Shown here piece by piece: positions 2,416 to 64,000 of a stretch of 64,000 bases of DNA. The position numbers were made by a program, and so were the translations under genes. Source of the DNA: Thetidibacter halocola (GTDB taxonomy: Bacteria > Pseudomonadota > Alphaproteobacteria > Rhodobacterales > Rhodobacteraceae). The DNA is taken from assembly GCF_018224955.1 (NCBI RefSeq), contig NZ_JAGTUU010000003.1, forward strand, positions 310,001-374,000, written 5' to 3'. Position 1 is the stretch's first letter. The number at the start of each line of letters is the position of its first letter. The notes beneath the pieces were generated by a model. That model worked only from the letters and a program-made list of their open reading frames with translations. It had not been told where the DNA came from and did not search any database.

Positions 2416-4164
2416 TCAGTCCGCGCGGTCCTTGCGCGGAGCGCCGACATGGCGGGGAAAGATCATCGAGACTTCGGTGCCTTTCCGGGCCTGGGTGGAC
2501 AGGCGCATGTAGCCCTGGGACTGCCGCACGAAACCCGCGACCATGCTCAGGCCCAGACCCACCCCGGCGCCGACGCCCCGGGTCGAGAAGAAGGGTTCGG
2601 TGGCCTGTTTCGCCGTGTCGCGGTCCATGCCGTCGCCCTCGTCGCGCACGACGAAGGCCACGTGGTCACGCTCGCATTGCAGCTCGGCCGGCAGGCGGGG
2701 GTCGCCGGCGGAAAAGTTCAGCGCCTCGACCGCGACCCGGCCGCCCGCGGGCATGGCCTGGCGCGCGTTGGACAGCAGGTTGACCAGCGCGACCTCCAGC
2801 TGTTGCGCGTCGAGCAGGATGTGCCAGTCGTCCTGGGGGATGCCGATGTCCAGGTGGATGCGGTTGGGGGCTCGCAGCGCGCTTTTCAGGATGACCTGGT
2901 GGTCGGTGAGGAAGGCACCGGGCGAGACCGGCGCAGCCTGAAGGTGCTGGCGCCCGGCATAGGACAGGAGGTGCCCGGTCAGTTTCGATGCCTTGGCGAC
3001 CGCGGCCGCGATCGCCTCGACATGCGGCCGCAGGGTCTCCGAGTTGTCCGACAGCATGGCCAGCAGCTCGGCATTGCCGGCGATTGCCGTCAGCTGGTTG
3101 TTGAACTCGTGCGCGATGCCGCCCGCGATCTTGCCAAGCGCCTGCTGGCGGTTGGACTGCATCAGGTTCTCGCGGATGCGGTGGTTCTCGATCAGCCGGT
3201 CCAGCTCGGCGGCGATCGCGGTCCAGGTTTCCTCCAGCGCGGCCTGCCACCAGCCGCCCAGCGGCAGGTCGGCCAGCTGGCCGCCCTCGTCGGCGCCGCG
3301 AAGGCGGTGGCAGAAGCGCACATGCCCGCCGCCGCCGCGCCACAGCTCGCGCAGCGCGCCGTCAAAGCCGCCCGGCCCGTCGCAGGCCGCGTCCGAGCCG
3401 TGCTGCCGCCCGCCGTGGTCGATCTGGATCCACAGGTCCATCTCCATGCCGAAACAGGGCCGCAGCACGCGCGGGGCCGCGTCTAGCATGGCCTCGACCG
3501 ATGCTTCGGGATCGGCCGAGAGCCGATCCAGCGCGACGATCGCCTGGTTGCGCCGCTCGAGGTGGTTCAGTCGGGCGACATGGATCTTGAGATCGGTCTG
3601 GTCGACGATCACCGCCAGGACCGAGGCCGCGCCAGTGCCGGGACCCAGACGCTGAAGATGCACCTCGGCGCGCAGCAGGTCGTCCTCGTCCCGGCCGCGA
3701 AGGGCGATGTCGGCAAGATAGGCCTGTCCGCCGGTGTTCGCCTCGGCCAGTGCCAGCGCCAGAATGTCCTGTTGCCGCCGCGCCCGGCCCAGCCTGCGCC
3801 ACAGGCAGTCGGTGCCGCTGGCGAGCTTGCCGAACCTCTGCCTCGCCCGGAAATTCGCCGTGCGGACCATGCCGCCTGTTGGTTCGATAACGATGGCCGG
3901 CGCCGGCAATTCCTCGAAGAATTGCTGGAAGCGCCGTAGCGCCTGTTCGCTGCGCAGGCTGGTTTCGCGCAGTTCCTCGGCCTGCAAGGCAAGCTCGGCA
4001 TCGAAGACCAGCACCTCGTGCGTCAGTTCGGCGATGGACAGGCCGCCTTCGGCGATCAGGCGGTCGCCGGTGCGCAGGTCTCCCTGGCGAAGCGCCGCAA
4101 GCGCACGACTTCGCAGATCGTCCCGGTATTCCGACGACATTCCCATGTGATTCGTATCGGTCAC
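2416..4164 (-). CDS. PAS-type sensor histidine kinase
   Basis: This is a 582-residue soluble kinase without clear membrane segments. The N-terminus has a helical stretch (45-80), then a PAS-like domain (about 83-190). The dimerisation/phosphoacceptor box GGIAHEFNNQLTAIAG puts the histidine near residue 352. ATPase boxes follow: N-box LLSNARQAM, G1 DEGDGMD and G2 GVGLGLSMV. There is no receiver domain, so a separate response regulator is needed. It starts 32 bp after the CheB-CheR-PAS gene on the same strand, so the two are probably cotranscribed and may form one sensory complex. The signal is unknown. Confidence 0.9.
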   Translation of the reverse strand: MTDTNHMGMSSEYRDDLRSRALAALRQGDLRTGDRLIAEGGLSIAELTHEVLVFDAELALQAEELRETSLRSEQALRRFQQFFEELPAPAIVIEPTGGMVRTANFRARQRFGKLASGTDCLWRRLGRARRQQDILALALAEANTGGQAYLADIALRGRDEDDLLRAEVHLQRLGPGTGAASVLAVIVDQTDLKIHVARLNHLERRNQAIVALDRLSADPEASVEAMLDAAPRVLRPCFGMEMDLWIQIDHGGRQHGSDAACDGPGGFDGALRELWRGGGGHVRFCHRLRGADEGGQLADLPLGGWWQAALEETWTAIAAELDRLIENHRIRENLMQSNRQQALGKIAGGIAHEFNNQLTAIAGNAELLAMLSDNSETLRPHVEAIAAAVAKASKLTGHLLSYAGRQHLQAAPVSPGAFLTDHQVILKSALRAPNRIHLDIGIPQDDWHILLDAQQLEVALVNLLSNARQAMPAGGRVAVEALNFSAGDPRLPAELQCERDHVAFVVRDEGDGMDRDTAKQATEPFFSTRGVGAGVGLGLSMVAGFVRQSQGYMRLSTQARKGTEVSMIFPRHVGAPRKDRAD

Positions 4165-4196
4165 GCCTGCGATTTCCTCTGGTGACCGGCCGATGG

Positions 4197-7130
4197 TCAG
4201 TTCTGTCCGCGTTCATGCTCGATCCGGGCGGGATCGATCCAGTCGCTCAGATTGTAGTGTGTCACCACGCCGCCCCCCTTCGTCAAGCCCGTCGCGTTGA
4301 GCAGGAACCATTGCTCCCTGCCGTCGGACGGGCAGGGGTACAGCTGGGAAAAGCTCGCGCGTGTGCCGGCGAGAATGGCCTCGAGGCCCTCCAGGACGCG
4401 TCGGGCATACTGGTCGGAGGGCGCGGCGCGGCGGCAGGCCTCAAGATAGTCGATGCCCGGGCCGGTGCCGGAAAGAGAGCCGCCGTTGCGGGTCGAGAAG
4501 TCGCGCCACGCGCTGTTGACCTCGACGATCGTGCCGTCGGGATCCAGCACCACGACGCTTTCCGGCAGCGCGTCGAGCACGGCCCGGAGATCGCGCAGGC
4601 CGAGCACGCTGGAAAGGTCGATGAACGAGATCACCACCCGCACCGTGCTGGCGCCGGTTGGCGTGTAGGGCAGGATGGTGACCATCCACTCTCTTCCGTC
4701 GCGGCTCTGGACCTCGTGTTGCAGGCTTGTCTGCTCGCTCATGGATCGCTGGATCTGGTCGAACAGCCCCTCGAAATGCAGGTTCGTGGTCAGTTCCGTG
4801 ATCGGCCGTCCGATATCGGTCTCGCGCAGCGAGAACAGCGCGAGCACCTCGGAAGTATACCGCGTGATCCGCAGGTCCGAGTCGAGGAAAAGCAGCGGGA
4901 TATGCGCCGCCCGCGCCAGACTGTCGAGATCGGCGTTGATCTCGTTCATCTCGACGATCTTGGCCTGGTATTCGGCGTTGATCGTATGCAACTCCTCGTT
5001 GACCGACTGAAGCTCTTCGTTCGAGCTTTGTAATTCCTCGTTTGCGGCCATCAGTTCCTCGTTCGAGGCCTGGAGTTCCTCGTTCGTGGTTCCCAATTCC
5101 TGGATCGTCGCGTTCAGGTTCGACCGGGTGAGCTCCAGTTCGCGCTCCAGGTCGGCGGCGTGGCGGCTGGACATGTCGCTCAGCTGGTCGGGGTCGATCT
5201 GGCGCGGCGGTTCGGCGCTGCGTGCCCGTGGTGCGGACCGTTCGAAGCTGATGAGCAGGTTCGACACGGTGATCGCGGCGTCGTCGAGGGGCACGACCGA
5301 CACGGTCAGCGCCTCCGGATCGCCATGGCCCAAGGCCCAGCGGGTGCTGGCCGTCTGGGGCTTCTTGTCCCGGATCGCGCTGTGCATCAGGGTCGAGACG
5401 ATCGGCACCAGGCCAGGGTCGAGCAACTGGTTGAGGTCAAGGCTGGGCGTGCCGGACCGCACCGCAAGCAGCCCCTCGGTGCGGCCGAAGACATGCAGCA
5501 CGCAGCGCGCGCTGTCGACGAGGATCGAGGGCGGGGCGTAGGCCTCGCACAGCTTTTCCTGCGCCACGTGCACCAGCGGTCGGCCACGCCGCGGATCGGG
5601 CGCCGCCCACGACGCCTCCCTGGTCCGGCCCAGCCCCGAGGACAGCGCCATCGTCGCCTCGGGCGCCAGCAACGGCATGCGCCGCTTGATGCGGAAGATC
5701 TTGCTGCGCTGGTCCACCGGGTTGTAGTCGCCCGAAAAACGCCCCGGCGTCTCGCTCGATCCCAGGAACAGCGTTCCGTCCGCCTTGAGCGCATAGGACA
5801 GCCGGCTCATCACCCGTTCCTGCGCCGGGATGCGCAGGTAGATCAGCATGTTGCGGCAGGTGATGAGATCCATGTTGGTGAAGGGTGCGTCGCTCATCAG
5901 GTCGTGGCGCGAAAACACGATGGACTGCCGCAGGCGCGGCACCACCGTGTACGTCCGCCCTTCGGTGCCGCGCGTGAACCAGCGCTCGCGCACGGTTTCG
6001 GGCAGCGTCGCCACCTGCGCCGCGGCGAATGTTCCGGCGCCCGCCCGGGCGACATAGTCGGGATCGACATCCGTGGCGAAGAACTTGAGCGGCGCGCGGC
6101 ATTCGGCGTTCTCCATCGCCTCGAGCAGCAGGATGGCGATGGAATAGGCCTCTTCGCCGGTCGCGCAGGACGTGGCCCAGACGCGGATCGGATCATCGTG
6201 ATTGTCGCGCCGGTCCTCGACCAGCGGGACGATGACCTGGTCGCGCAGGCATTCGAAGGCGTCGGGATCGCGGAAGAAGGCAGTGACCGGGATCAGGATC
6301 TCGTGGCGCAGCGCGGTCACTTCGTCGGGGCGGCTCGACAGGAACGCGGTATAGGCGTGCAGGTCGGGGATGCCGCAGGCGATCAGCCGTCGTTCCAGCC
6401 GCCGCAACAGCGTGTTCGGCTTGTATTCCGGCAGGTTCAGCTGCACCAGGCTGGACAGGGTCCGCAGGTTGCTGCCCAGCAGGTCGCGTTCGTCCAGCAC
6501 GTGTTCCGACCGCAGGCTTTTCGACGACGGGCGCAGCCCGCTGTGGCACAGGCTGGTCACCTCCTGGGCCAGGCCTTCGGGCGACAGGACATGGTCGACC
6601 GCGCCGGTGGCGATGGCGTTGGCGGGCATCCCGTCGAACCGCGCGCCCTCGGGATCCTGCGCCATCACCCAGGCGCCGGCCTCGGACAGGGTGCGCGCGC
6701 CGAGGCTGCCGTCGGACCCGGTGCCGGACAGGACGATGCCGATGGCCTTGTCCGGGCAATCCTGCGCGAGGCTGTCGAAGAAGGCGTTGATCGGCAGGGA
6801 GATCCCCGCGTTGCTGCGCGGCGCCAGCTTTAGCCGGCCGCCGACGATCGTCATGGCGGCGTTGGGCGGGATGACATAGACATGCCCGGTCTGCACCGCC
6901 ATGTCGTGGCCCGCCACCTGCACGGGCATCTGCGTGTGTCGCGCCAGCAACTTGTCCATCATCGTCTCGTGTTCCGGCGCAAGGTGCTGGATCACCACGA
7001 AGGCGGCGTTCACCGGGAGGTCGACCGCGCCGAAGAACCGGTCGAGCGCGTCCAGCCCGCCGGCCGAGGCGCCGAGCGCCACGATGGTGCCCGGGTTTGC
7101 GGCGGCGTCTTCGGTGGCTCGGCTGTCCAT
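4197..7130 (-). CDS. CheB-CheR fusion protein with coiled coil and PAS domains
   Basis: This 977-residue protein joins a CheB methylesterase domain (GASAGG serine, QHLAPEH histidine, SGTGSDG aspartate; about residues 15-200) to a CheR methyltransferase domain ([29 protein letters not shown]; about 215-480). A long coiled coil of repeated NEEL units follows, then two PAS domains. No kinase domain is present; the next gene supplies one. The ATG at 7130 was chosen because a GGAAGA ribosome-binding site precedes it and CheB homology starts soon after. An upstream ATG would add up to 79 residues without family similarity. Both enzyme active sites look complete, but the methylation target is not a classical chemoreceptor here, as none is nearby. 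Confidence 0.9.
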
Positions 7131-16232: not shown

Positions 16233-17231
16233 ATGAACCGCAAGACGATCCTGAACCGCCGGACATTCCTGTCCACCAGCGCCGCGGCCTCGCTGACGCT
16301 GGCCACGCCGGGCCTGCTGCGCGCGAACACCTTTCCCGAGCGCAACATAGACGTCTACGTTCCGACCGCTGAGGGCGGCGGCGCCGACCGCAACTTCCGC
16401 GCCTTCACCAGCATCTGGAAGACCAAGCTGGGCGTCGATTTCGAACCGGGCTACTACCCCGGCGCGTCCGGCCGGGTGGGCTATGAGATCTACATGGGTA
16501 AGGCCGAGCCCGACTGCTACAGCCTGATCTTCGGCAACATGGGCCCCGAGGTGCTGAACTGGGCCATGCAGGAGCCGACATTCGACGTCGACGACTACTT
16601 CTATTTCGGCCAGGTCGACGTGGACCCGTCGGTCGTCTTCGTCGGCGCCGAAAGCCCGTTCCAGACCATCGATGACATCGTCGCCGAAGGACAGAAGCGG
16701 ACGCTGACCGTGGGCACCAGTCGCATGGCGCACCCGGCCTCCATCGGTATCCTCGCTCTGGGCGACCAGACCGGGGCGAAGTTCAACCTGATCCCGCTTG
16801 CGGGCGGCAAGAACACGGTCGCGGGCGCCGTGACCGGCGAGGTCGACTTCTCGGTGCTGACCTCGGGTTCGGTGATCGCCGCGGGCGACGCCGTGCGCAC
16901 GCTGCTGGTCTTCGGCGAGAACCGCGTGGGCGAGCGTCTGAACAATGCCAAGAACATCAACGAGGTCTATGGCATGGACCTGCCCGAAATGCTGTCGGCC
17001 CGCGCCTTCGGCATCCACCGCGCCGCGGCCGAGGCTTATCCCGACCGCTTCGCGCGGCTCCAGGAGACCTTTGCCGAGACCTTCGAGGATCCGGCCCTGC
17101 TCGAGGCCTATGTCGCCTCGGGCGGCGCGCCGGAATACCTGCGCATGGGCGGTGTCGAGGAATGCGCCAAGTTCAAGGCCGCGATGCTGGAACTGGGCGC
17201 GAAATACAAGCCGCTGCTGACCGGCGCCTGA
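16233..17231 (+). CDS. tctC: TctC/Bug-type periplasmic substrate-binding protein of a tripartite tricarboxylate transporter
   Basis: The 332-residue protein begins with a twin-arginine signal (NRRTFLSTSAAASLTLATPG), so it is probably exported by Tat, and has no lipobox. The mature part follows the TctC/Bug family (YVPTAEGGGADRN near the start, then a central HPASIG and LIPLAGGKNTVAGAVTGEVDF). It captures a carboxylated solute for the adjacent TctB-TctA permease. The start has an excellent AGGGAGGAAG site. A strong hairpin follows the stop codon and may keep this mRNA segment more abundant than the permease segment. The solute is not predictable from sequence. Confidence 0.9.
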   Translation: MNRKTILNRRTFLSTSAAASLTLATPGLLRANTFPERNIDVYVPTAEGGGADRNFRAFTSIWKTKLGVDFEPGYYPGASGRVGYEIYMGKAEPDCYSLIFGNMGPEVLNWAMQEPTFDVDDYFYFGQVDVDPSVVFVGAESPFQTIDDIVAEGQKRTLTVGTSRMAHPASIGILALGDQTGAKFNLIPLAGGKNTVAGAVTGEVDFSVLTSGSVIAAGDAVRTLLVFGENRVGERLNNAKNINEVYGMDLPEMLSARAFGIHRAAAEAYPDRFARLQETFAETFEDPALLEAYVASGGAPEYLRMGGVEECAKFKAAMLELGAKYKPLLTGA

Positions 17232-61294: not shown

Positions 61295-61429
61295 GCGACC
61301 CTCCTCAATTGCGGTCGTTCTTGCCAGAGCCGGCCCCGCCCGGCAAGCGCACCGAACGATGCGGTTTTCTATCTGATTGCCACCTTAGAAAGGGTAAACG
61401 GTTTCAGATATTTGCGTTCGCTGGTGGCT

Positions 61430-61458
61430 TTGACAGACAGGGCAATCGCGGCTAGCGT
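61430..61458 (+). promoter_or_regulatory. Candidate promoter of the GTA/terminase cluster
   Basis: TTGACA (61430-61435) and TAGCGT (61453-61458) are 17 bases apart, about 110 bases before the first gene of the cluster. The -35 is a consensus match, the -10 is weaker. No other motif was recognised in 61295-61566. Confidence 0.45.
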
Positions 61459-61566
61459 CCATCCATGCTGGACGTGTCGGCATGTGGAACAGGCCGGGCG
61501 AAGATCCGATCCGCATCACCGCCGCTTACCTGGAGGGGAGACCTACAGGCAAGAAAGGTGTCGAGC

Positions 61567-61926
61567 ATGGAAGAGCAGAACGAAGACCGGACGCTGATCC
61601 GGGCCAGCAGCCGCCTGAGACGGCTGGAATCAGAACGGGATGACATCGCCGAGATGCTGGCGACCATCCGCGAAGATATCCGCGATCTGAGAACGCGGAT
61701 CCGGCAGGGCGAAGTTTCCAGGAGTGCAGAGGACGCGAAGTTGATGGCGGACATCCGCTACTGGCTGCGTGCGTCGCGGGAAACGGAGGCCGAGATTGAA
61801 GACATCAGGCGCAAGGAAGAGGGAATCGTCGGGGAATACGGATTGGACCTCGAACAGGCATGCGTTGCGGTCCGGTGCCAGCTTGATAGCCTCCGCGCCT
61901 GCTGCGGTGCAGGAGAGGTTTCTTGA
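61567..61926 (+). CDS. Probable GTA small terminase subunit (g1-like)
   Basis: The 119-residue protein is mainly a coiled coil (about 10-45, SSRLRRLESERDDIAEMLAT) with a short helical C-terminus (DLEQACVAVRCQLDSLRA). Its size, coiled coil and place immediately before the large terminase match gene g1 of Rhodobacter-type gene transfer agents, which encodes the small terminase. ATG 61567 follows AGAAAGG; upstream starts are less likely. Its end overlaps the large terminase start. Sequence similarity alone is weak, so the call depends on position. Confidence 0.6.
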   Translation: MEEQNEDRTLIRASSRLRRLESERDDIAEMLATIREDIRDLRTRIRQGEVSRSAEDAKLMADIRYWLRASRETEAEIEDIRRKEEGIVGEYGLDLEQACVAVRCQLDSLRACCGAGEVS

Positions 61927-63202
61927 CGGTCTGACCACCGGGGAGCGCATCGCGCTCCCCTACCTGTTCGAATTCTGGGCGCATCCGCACCAGCTGCCGC
62001 CGGATGGTTTCTGGCGGTCCTGGGTGATCCTGGGCGGGCGCGGCGCGGGAAAGACGCGGGCGGGCGCCGAATGGGTGCGATCCCAGGTCGAGGGCGCGCG
62101 GCCGCTGTCGCCGGGGCGCTGCAAGCGGCTGGCGCTGATCGGCGAGACGCTGGACCAGGCGCGCGAGGTGATGATCTTTGGCGACAGCGGGATCATGGCC
62201 TGTTCGCCGCCTGACCGGAAACCGAAATGGGTGGCGTCGCGGCGCTGCCTCGTCTGGCCGAACGGGGCGGAGGCGATGGTCTATTCCGCCTTCGACCCTG
62301 AATCGCTACGGGGGCCGCAGTTTGATGGCGCCTGGGTGGATGAACTGGCGAAATGGCCCAAGGCGCGCGAGACCTGGGACATGCTGCAATTCGGGCTGCG
62401 GCTGGGGGATGACCCTAAGGTCTGCGTGACGACGACGCCGCGCAATGTCGATGTGCTGAAGGAATTGCTGGAGCTGCCGTCCTCGGTGGTGACCCATGCG
62501 CCGACCGAGGCGAACCGGGCGCACCTGGCGGAGTCCTTCCTCGAGGAGGTGCGGGCGCGCTATGCGAACACGCGGCTGGGGATGCAGGAACTGGACGGCG
62601 TGCTGGTCGACACGGTCGATGGCGCGCTGTGGTCGCGCGAGATGTTCCGGCCCGCGGGGCGGGTTCCCGATCTGGATAGGGTCGTTGTGGCGGTCGATCC
62701 GCCGGCGGGGACGGGCAAGGCGGCGGATGAATGCGGGATCGTGGTGGCCGGTGTGGTCATGCAGGGCAAGCCGCATGAATGGCGCGCCTATGTGCTGGAG
62801 GATGCCTCGGTCCAGGGGGTGTCTCCGACCGGATGGGCCACGGCGGCAGTCGAGGCGGCGCGGCGCTGGGACGCGCAGCGGGTGGTCTACGAGGCCAACC
62901 AGGGCGGCGCGATGGTGGGCACGGTGCTGCAACAGGTCGACCCGGGCGTGGCGCTGAAGGCGGTGCATGCCTCGGACGGCAAGAGCGCGCGGGCCGAGCC
63001 GGTGGCGGCGCTGTATGAGCAGGGCCGGGTGTTCCACGCGGCGGGTCTGGGGCGGCTGGAGGCGCAGATGCAACTGATGACGCAGCGCGGCTTCGAGGGG
63101 CAGGGCAGCCCGGACCGGGTGGACGCGCTGGTCTGGGCGGTGACGGAGTTGATGCTGGGGCGGGGGGGGATGGCGTCGCCGAGGGCAAGGACGTTAGGGT
63201 GA
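61883..63202 (+). CDS. Terminase large subunit, gene transfer agent type (g2-like)
   Basis: The 439-residue protein has the packaging ATPase motif LGGRGAGKTRAGAEW (about 47-61), Walker B GAWVDELAKW and the RNase-H-like nuclease with aspartates in VVVAVDPPAG and SPDRVDALVWA. The N-terminal LPYLFEFWAHPHQLPP stretch is typical of Rhodobacterales GTA terminases. No ATG fits: TTG 61883 matches the expected N-terminus, while ATG 61769 would add 38 residues that lie mostly inside g1. A prophage terminase is possible, but no integrase is seen. The C-terminus looks complete. Confidence 0.88.
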   Translation: MIASAPAAVQERFLDGLTTGERIALPYLFEFWAHPHQLPPDGFWRSWVILGGRGAGKTRAGAEWVRSQVEGARPLSPGRCKRLALIGETLDQAREVMIFGDSGIMACSPPDRKPKWVASRRCLVWPNGAEAMVYSAFDPESLRGPQFDGAWVDELAKWPKARETWDMLQFGLRLGDDPKVCVTTTPRNVDVLKELLELPSSVVTHAPTEANRAHLAESFLEEVRARYANTRLGMQELDGVLVDTVDGALWSREMFRPAGRVPDLDRVVVAVDPPAGTGKAADECGIVVAGVVMQGKPHEWRAYVLEDASVQGVSPTGWATAAVEAARRWDAQRVVYEANQGGAMVGTVLQQVDPGVALKAVHASDGKSARAEPVAALYEQGRVFHAAGLGRLEAQMQLMTQRGFEGQGSPDRVDALVWAVTELMLGRGGMASPRARTLG

Positions 63203-63403
63203 GGAATTACAATTTTCAAGGACCAAGGCGAATGTTTTGGTCCTGTTCTATCATGAGATAACGAATTCTTTGCGGCAAATGGATCTTGCAGCCTTTCATT
63301 CTTCAATTTGTCATAATGTAGCTAGTTGATTAGGAACTCTAAAATTTTCAATACGGTGGGCAGAGGGTGGGGTTTATTGATGGAAATACTTGCGCGGCTC
63401 AGG
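63203..63403. other. AT-rich stretch after the terminase gene
   Basis: Hand counts give about 33-40% G+C per 60 bases, against about 65-70% in the terminase. It holds an 8-bp stem, AGGACCAA (63219-63226) with TTGGTCCT (63237-63244), that could end transcription. No gene is visible. Confidence 0.6.
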
Positions 63404-63817
63404 TTAAATAAAGACGAAATATGCTAAAGCTGCAAAACCCAAGAGCGCAACCAATGCGGCTGTGGAAGCAGCCACCCACATTGCCGAGACAGCGGCAAAG
63501 CTAGCAGTAAGCAAGTTCTGAAGGAACGGCACTTCGACGGCGGGCTCTTCAACAAAAGCCAATCCATACCAAGTATCGTCGATTCTAAGAATAGCAGCTT
63601 TGCCTGTTAGAAGAATTCCGTGTTTCAAAGCCATAATAGTCCCGTCTTCGTCACCGGCCCACCAACGATCCATCATGATGCGTTGTTCAAATTCGATCGA
63701 ATTTTTTATTTTGACTGGAGCGATGCCGCTAGCAACCGTATAGCCGATAATGACAGCAGCAGCTGAAAATAGGCGTACTGCTTTTAGTAAGTCATCTAAA
63801 CTCGCCCGTAGGTCCAT
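63404..63817 (-). CDS. Hypothetical membrane protein in AT-rich insert
   Basis: The 137-residue product has an N-terminal membrane segment (about 14-32), a soluble middle part (about 35-95, with DRWWAGDEDGTIMALKHGIL) and a long hydrophobic C-terminus (about 97-137) that can span the membrane once or twice. ATG 63817 has GAGGA seven bases upstream and is preferred over ATG 63865. I recognise no family. It lies opposite to the terminase genes, in DNA of clearly lower G+C (about 47-52% in the lines I counted), which suggests transfer. Confidence 0.6.
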   Translation of the reverse strand: MDLRASLDDLLKAVRLFSAAAVIIGYTVASGIAPVKIKNSIEFEQRIMMDRWWAGDEDGTIMALKHGILLTGKAAILRIDDTWYGLAFVEEPAVEVPFLQNLLTASFAAVSAMWVAASTAALVALLGFAALAYFVFI

Positions 63818-64000
63818 TAGGATTCCTCGTCGGTGGTATGAAGCAAAATATGAAAGCTCTTTCATTTAGCCTTAATTTTAGATGGGCTCAACAAAGATTC
63901 TCAGTGTTGCGCACCCACCGTGCGGTGCCGTGAAAGCCTCTTAAGCCCAGTCTCCTACAACCCTCACAACGGCGGAAAGACCCGCCCAAGGACACCGCTT
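63818..64000. other. AT-rich end of insert turning GC-richer near the window edge
   Basis: The composition rises again from about 63905. A perfect inverted repeat, CACCG-TG-CGGTG, lies at 63916-63927. No start of a portal gene or other gene is recognised before the window ends. Confidence 0.4.

Follow-up and report, generated by a model that had tools for sequence, protein, structure and literature searches.

How does a gene transfer agent (GTA) cluster of the RcGTA type, a class treated as a single unit under one promoter, come to hold a small AT-rich gene between its large terminase gene (g2) and its portal gene (g3)? The question is raised by Thetidibacter halocola (Rhodobacteraceae; assembly GCF_018224955.1), in a window of 64,000 nucleotides (contig NZ_JAGTUU010000003.1, positions 310,001 to 374,000, forward strand) that closes just before g3. 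Here, we describe this cluster, its insert and a conserved element ahead of g3, and propose that the g2-g3 junction is likely to be a boundary between two expression units, and hence tolerant of cargo, in a probably functional RcGTA-type cluster. The features on which the question turns are these, with g-numbers assigned from gene order and family matches:

61567 to 61926, plus strand: g1, GTA small-terminase-like gene; the open reading frame (ORF) is open from 61465 and the start at 61567 is likely, by eye.
61769 to 63202, plus strand: g2, large terminase; ORF with homology from 61877 and a Pfam match.
63203 to 63904, no strand assigned: low-G+C inserted DNA, 702 nt with 44% G+C, delimited by composition.
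63404 to 63865, minus strand: cargo gene, a 153-aa ORF for which a 137-aa form from a start at 63817 is more likely.

The cluster is a complete RcGTA-type gene transfer agent with a foreign insertion, and not a decayed edge. A first-pass annotation of the window had recorded a g1-like ORF and an intact large terminase, and ORF calls and Pfam searches (Terminase_6N, E = 6.9e-28; Terminase_6C, E = 7.2e-19) bear it out. The DNA beyond the window, where the annotation had advised looking for portal, protease and capsid genes, contains all of these and the genes up to g15. Along locus L002 (coordinates equal window position minus 59999), g1, g2 and the insert are followed by the portal gene (4033-5226), g3.5, protease, capsid, g6-g14 and g15, whose product is 1311 aa and which ends at 16306. 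The annotation's observation that the terminase is not directly followed by a portal gene is therefore right in that the insert intervenes, but the portal match begins at contig position 374032 (window-equivalent 64032), 32 bases beyond the window end, with 829 bp between the g2 stop and the portal start. All 17 ORFs are open and in RcGTA order from g1 to g15, an order that their relatives share in most of 100 fetched loci. Several belong to the expected Pfam families (portal, S78 protease, HK97-type capsid, connector, gp17-like and DUF2460). Curated RcGTA models of NCBIfam also recognise the tape-measure protein (NF058675 RcGTA_tape, 356 bits, cut-off 220) and the megatron protein (NF048004, 1908 bits, cut-off 800). 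With the downstream genes present and complete, the edge of a decayed cluster, one of the two origins first proposed, is rejected for this genome, while the other, an inserted cargo gene, is supported.

An ordinary prophage carrying a moron gene, to which the HK97-type portal and capsid would be suited, is highly improbable and was also rejected. The best-ranked phage portal is 49% identical, compared with up to 85% in Rhodobacteraceae clusters, and the eight flanking ORFs tested are of chromosomal types or unassigned, with no integrase among them. These flanks and the closer Rhodobacteraceae portals, together with the gene order and the Pfam and NCBIfam matches, indicate an intact RcGTA-type cluster; the downstream DNA is neither a prophage nor devoid of structural genes, either of which would, by the annotation, have refuted its reading. 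A GafA-like protein is encoded elsewhere in the genome (373 aa; DUF6456 at 205 bits, and an N-terminal HTH_38 match of 20.9 bits that falls under the Pfam cut-off of 27), and DUF6456 is linked to GafA in the accessible text of one study (PMC9638019). The cluster is probably functional, as far as particle production can be judged from its genes.

Sixteen junctions were measured in the 100 fetched loci, one per genus, plus the T. halocola locus. The 100 were drawn from the terminase matches listed, and most are also among the portal matches listed. The g2-g3 interval exceeds 400 bp in 9 of 99 loci (489-5853 bp), with T. halocola as one of the nine (8/98 without it); long intervals that had been noticed were all included by eye, except that of G260 (433 bp). 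At the 15 remaining junctions, not one interval out of 1405 observed is above 400 bp (n = 73-99 each, with some junctions removed by deletions in L152, L197 and L220). L175 and L179, without g3 in the fetched stretch, are outside the 99, and L150 runs off its contig. Thus the expectation that GTA clusters are continuous is upheld at 15 junctions and fails at g2-g3. A set of 80 named loci from the portal search gave 9 of 79 measurable g2-g3 intervals above 600 bp, after correction of two frame-split terminases; three of these nine come from genomes shared with the first set. In the nearest relatives of T. halocola, g2-g3 spacers are mostly 111-353 bp.

Target size alone could favor this junction as the longest gap in a packed operon, with no special transcription boundary, and most other junctions do overlap or have medians of at most 33 bp, the g2-g3 median being the largest (144 bp). 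We consider this account unlikely, because g5-g6, likewise intergenic and with gaps of 103 bp in the median, has no insert in 97 loci (0/97 above 400 bp; Fisher p = 0.003 against g2-g3), and because the element described below is specific to the g2-g3 spacer and remains with g3 in split clusters.

The cargo differs by lineage, so that one site is occupied by unrelated genes. Four Salipiger and one Citreicella carry an antisense GNAT acetyltransferase (Pfam was run on the S. abyssi copy), Sagittula salina carries an antisense MFS transporter fragment that extends into the end of g2, and G126 carries a sense lipoprotein-like orphan with no Pfam match. The largest cargo, 5.85 kb in G031 (L136), consists of an antisense LuxR-type regulator followed by a sense ABC-transporter operon and a short-chain dehydrogenase (LuxR and binding protein assigned by Pfam, the remainder by eye). 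The 3.9 kb insert of G382 (L137/L197) holds an antisense IS1595 transposase, a DUF3800 protein, a membrane-protein-like ORF and other ORFs, and a Pelagimonas insert (L057/L132) has no clear gene. Ratios of nonsynonymous to synonymous substitution rates (dN/dS) among Salipiger and Citreicella are 0.20-0.40 for the GNAT cargo and 0.12-0.19 for the portal behind it (ten pairs each), which shows that cargo in the slot has coexisted with a constrained GTA gene.

These ratios also bear on whether the T. halocola insert arrived recently and does harm, silencing g3-g15 and leaving a young pseudo-operon yet to decay. The insert is AT-rich and relatives of it were not found, hence it is probably recent; transcription would run into a hairpin and an opposing gene, and L197, a cargo-bearing relative, has a large deletion. 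Such a harmful insertion is nonetheless distinctly unlikely, as the older Salipiger-Citreicella cargo precedes a portal under constraint and the element is retained downstream of the cargo. By a rough ORF-length check, 2 of 117 genes are short in cargo-bearing clusters and 10 of 1248 in the others; g6 of L206 and of L176 is open in another frame, and the deletions in L197, L152 and L220 are real.

The element lies between the insert and g3:

63907 to 63961, plus strand: promoter-like element, comprising TTGCG, the palindrome CACCGTGCGGTG (63916-63927), TTAA (63941-63944) and TACAAC (63956-63961).

A de novo motif search of the spacers, coding sequence excluded, returned GCACCGNACGGTGGNNTTNNGGNNTNTTAA in 52 of 99 at a score of at least 12 (0.2 in shuffles). 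The flanking columns hold TTGCG upstream and a TANNNT-like hexamer, its A 97% conserved, followed by a pyrimidine run; the consensus of the element is TTGCG..CGNNCGGT..TTAA..TANNNT. With the final 60 nt of g2 added to the search, 75 of 99 loci score at least 8, and 21 of these matches overlap the g2 end. Tests in which half of the sites were held out placed the best match in the locus at the spacer for 41/63 and 42/63 genomes; these tests are not fully independent, since the model that aligned the sites had been trained on every spacer. The pattern occurs once in the T. halocola genome with one mismatch allowed, and ends 87 nt before the portal gene. In seven of the nine long-interval genomes it separates the cargo from g3, and each of the 14 named loci tested has it next to g3 (spacers of 335-1149 bp, nine above 600 bp). 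The element is not the g1 promoter, as only 1 of 73 sequences upstream of g1 scores at least 15. Given its composition and placement, we infer that it may be a promoter. As a separate observation, the 21 overlapping matches cover the last g2 codons and the stop codon, and in longer spacers the element stands apart from the stop, a pattern that resembles the g2 end having been displaced by insertion.

Two naturally split clusters, in G150 and G325, took no part in building the motif and serve as independent cases. Unrelated genes come after their g1-g2 pairs (L175 and L179, respectively), and the remaining fetched sequence has no match to g3-g15. The capsid genes are on other contigs (L249, L250), within modules in which every gene from g3 to g15 was detected. 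When both strands of the g3 locus are scored, the element has its top match roughly 90-105 nt ahead of g3 in both genomes (scores 20.7 in G150 and 33.1 in G325), and there is no match after g2 (2.3 and -2.3). These modules indicate that g2-g3 is where the cluster also comes apart, and that the element belongs to g3.

The split genomes further make it improbable that the element is left over from an ancestral phage as a packaging or IHF-binding site and has been retained for one of these roles, packaging or the looping of DNA. Its usual position beside the terminase would fit such a site, and four IHF sites are reported in the corresponding Caulobacter interval (PMC11150451, accessible text). 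In the two split genomes, however, it stays with g3 and not with the terminase; it looks like a promoter, with its palindrome, TTAA and 97% conserved -10-like A some 30-230 nt before the start codon; and the Caulobacter IHF sites are described as mutable without particle loss (PMC11150451).

The other side of the junction carries a possible end to the g1-g2 transcript:

63220 to 63251, plus strand: terminator-like hairpin just past the g2 stop, with a strong stem and a weak T-tract.

This hairpin has an RNA fold z of -3.37 (1 of 200 shuffles as stable) and scores 27.5 in a terminator scan in which at least 27 counts as strong and spacers are covered to their first 420 nt at most. Strong sense terminator-like hairpins were found in 16 of 99 g2-g3 spacers (1.7 expected), with controls of 1/95 at g5-g6 (0.5 expected), 1/99 in coding sequence (0.9) and 3/97 after g15 (1.0). 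The accessible text of a Caulobacter GTA study describes a strong terminator after the terminase gene, past which GafZ lets some polymerase proceed, with gtaQS located between terminase and portal; in it, Tran and Le suggest that R. capsulatus GafA may have unrecognised anti-termination activity (PMC11150451). A strain in which g1 had been deleted by means of a gentamicin-interrupted construct is reported, in the part of the paper available, to be restored by g1 alone (PMC6854486). This restoration would fit independent expression of the later genes, and the cassette could also account for it.

We propose the following sequence of events. A small AT-rich foreign gene would have landed in reverse orientation between g2 and g3. 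The g1-g2 unit would be transcribed from a promoter upstream of g1 and would meet a terminator after g2, clearly so in some genomes, while g3-g15 would be served by a conserved control element of their own, immediately ahead of g3, possibly assisted by GafA anti-termination read-through. Since the cargo falls between the g2 stop and the element, it would break neither unit, and the insert would be tolerated because the junction separates the two.

Several observations weigh against a two-unit arrangement in a working cluster. A strong canonical terminator is present in only that minority of 16/99 spacers; a second terminator scan does not list the hairpin at 63220-63251, the T-tract of which is weak; and antisense hairpins show a slight excess in g2-g3 as well (3/99, 0.7 expected). 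Two of the nine long-interval genomes, L180 and L197, have no scoring element, and it is from sequence only that we infer a possible action of GafA or CtrA on it. In L197 (G382), also one of the nine long-interval loci, g5 is fused to g15 and g6-g14 are deleted, which shows that decay can occur in a cluster with cargo; two of the 90 other loci are internally deleted, L152 in the g11-g15 region and L220 in the g12-g15 region. The Salipiger abyssi terminase (L060, 1876-3220) is frame-broken in the assembly. Finally, g2-g3 is the longest spacer, and target size thus explains part of the bias.

A stronger version is possible, though we hold it with little confidence: the clusters may be bipartite, with the element serving g3-g15 as a late promoter, or as a loading site for anti-termination, that depends on GafA and/or CtrA, and the slot may be a regulated moron locus in which divergent cargo is co-induced with the structural genes and has a linked function for producers or recipients.

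The insert itself is foreign in composition. As the annotation had stated, some 0.7 kb of DNA low in G+C lies 3' of the terminase and holds an ORF on the opposite strand, confirmed by composition and by the ORF at 63404-63865: G+C drops from about 0.70 to 0.43-0.50 past the terminase stop and recovers from about 63905, within surroundings of 65-70%. The cargo ORF has G+C of 0.55, 0.42 and 0.42 at the three codon positions, which fits a foreign origin in a GC-rich genome, and an ORF as long as this one appears in 2 of 1000 dinucleotide-shuffled versions of the insert. By eye, GAGGA precedes the internal ATG at 63817. Two hydrophobic ends, noted by eye, suggest a membrane protein. The cargo gene is an orphan: its product has no Pfam, NCBIfam or PADLOC match, and with no PADLOC match it is assigned to no known defence family. 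A search of 394 family genomes gave 12 matches at E of at most 0.1, including itself, none convincing (best non-self E values 0.0055 and 0.0076, with 29% identity over short stretches). A pattern search whose reach is limited to close relatives found none in GTDB or among viral contigs, and plasmids and phages likewise gave none. A structure prediction of the 137-aa form (predicted local distance difference test, pLDDT, 59.8) was not used. The insert has no second copy in its own genome, where the search returned itself plus chance-level matches of about 16-25 nt, and it contains no transposase; as a single copy without a transposase, it was rejected as a mobile element, although the G382 insert does carry one. 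A candidate promoter precedes the cargo gene:

63875 to 63904, minus strand: sigma-70-like promoter site for the cargo gene, CTGAGA-18-TAAAAT, from a consensus scan only.

Two such consensus sites were found in the region (0.6 expected). This site sits back to back with the element ahead of g3, and shared control of the two is possible. Most likely, the cargo is an independent passenger gene with its own predicted promoter.

Relatives of g1 were detected in 73 of 101 loci, with about 24-56% identity by tblastn in the named loci where detected, and g2 is mostly 60-79% identical to terminases of same-family genomes among the matches listed. By eye, sequence upstream of g1 (window 61380-61567, L146-L216) is conserved as GTAAACG-NTTTCA-N5-TTGCGTTCG, TTGAC, TANNNT and then ATGCTGGACG. 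Several relatives have CGNACGGTC between the two hexamers there, where Caulobacter has a reported putative GafZ-binding element. A run of eight G at 63162-63169, near the 3' end of the terminase gene, is a possible slippage site. Among other loci, the terminase of a FRAM18 metagenome-assembled genome (L104, 2526-3862) is likewise split over two frames, and in L060 and L104 this is either a pseudogene or an assembly error. G003 (L030), with a shortened terminase and no portal match among the matches listed, and G013 (L031), with a terminase in three pieces, are candidate decayed clusters.

Seven of the eight flanking ORFs were assigned, as an ABC-F-like ATPase, TfoX_C, an aminotransferase, a serine acetyltransferase, a lipoate acyltransferase, a transketolase C-terminus and DUF7742, and one had no match. 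The serine acetyltransferase gene is just 3' of the cluster (L002 17026-17877); cysE1 of R. capsulatus is reportedly tied to GTA transfer, going by the title of one paper (PMC9552610).

The element before the portal gene, the single cargo-tolerant junction and the two split genomes together suggest a second control point between the packaging and structural genes. No description of g2-g3 cargo or of an internal GTA promoter in Rhodobacteraceae was found in the titles and abstract openings covered, a body of literature that subscription papers are mostly outside. The g2-g3 spacer may be the place to look for the GafA anti-termination raised by Tran and Le (PMC11150451, accessible text), and the slot offers a route to finding accessory genes tied to GTAs.

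Compared with known systems, the T. halocola cluster is like RcGTA (g1-g15) of Rhodobacter capsulatus in gene order, in its curated tape-measure and megatron families and in having a separate gafA-like gene, and differs by a foreign gene of 0.7 kb that separates g2 from g3. A further difference is the conserved g2-g3 spacer element, which was not found described in the titles and abstract openings covered, R. capsulatus being compared through its literature. Prophage morons are accessory genes with their own promoter between phage modules, and the cargo is similarly an apparently autonomous gene of different G+C, in reverse orientation as morons often are, between two functional modules; here, however, it belongs to a GTA cluster, and the junction is a fixed one. 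The GTA of Caulobacter crescentus (CcGTA; gtaT-terGTA-gtaQS-gtaP) has a terminator right after the large terminase, where T. halocola has the terminator-like hairpin, and resembles this arrangement in extra genes before the portal, according to the accessible text (PMC11150451). In contrast to CcGTA, the g2-g3 spacers of Rhodobacteraceae (median 144 bp) mostly leave no room for three 150-bp repeats, and they hold changing cargo together with the palindrome-TTAA element.

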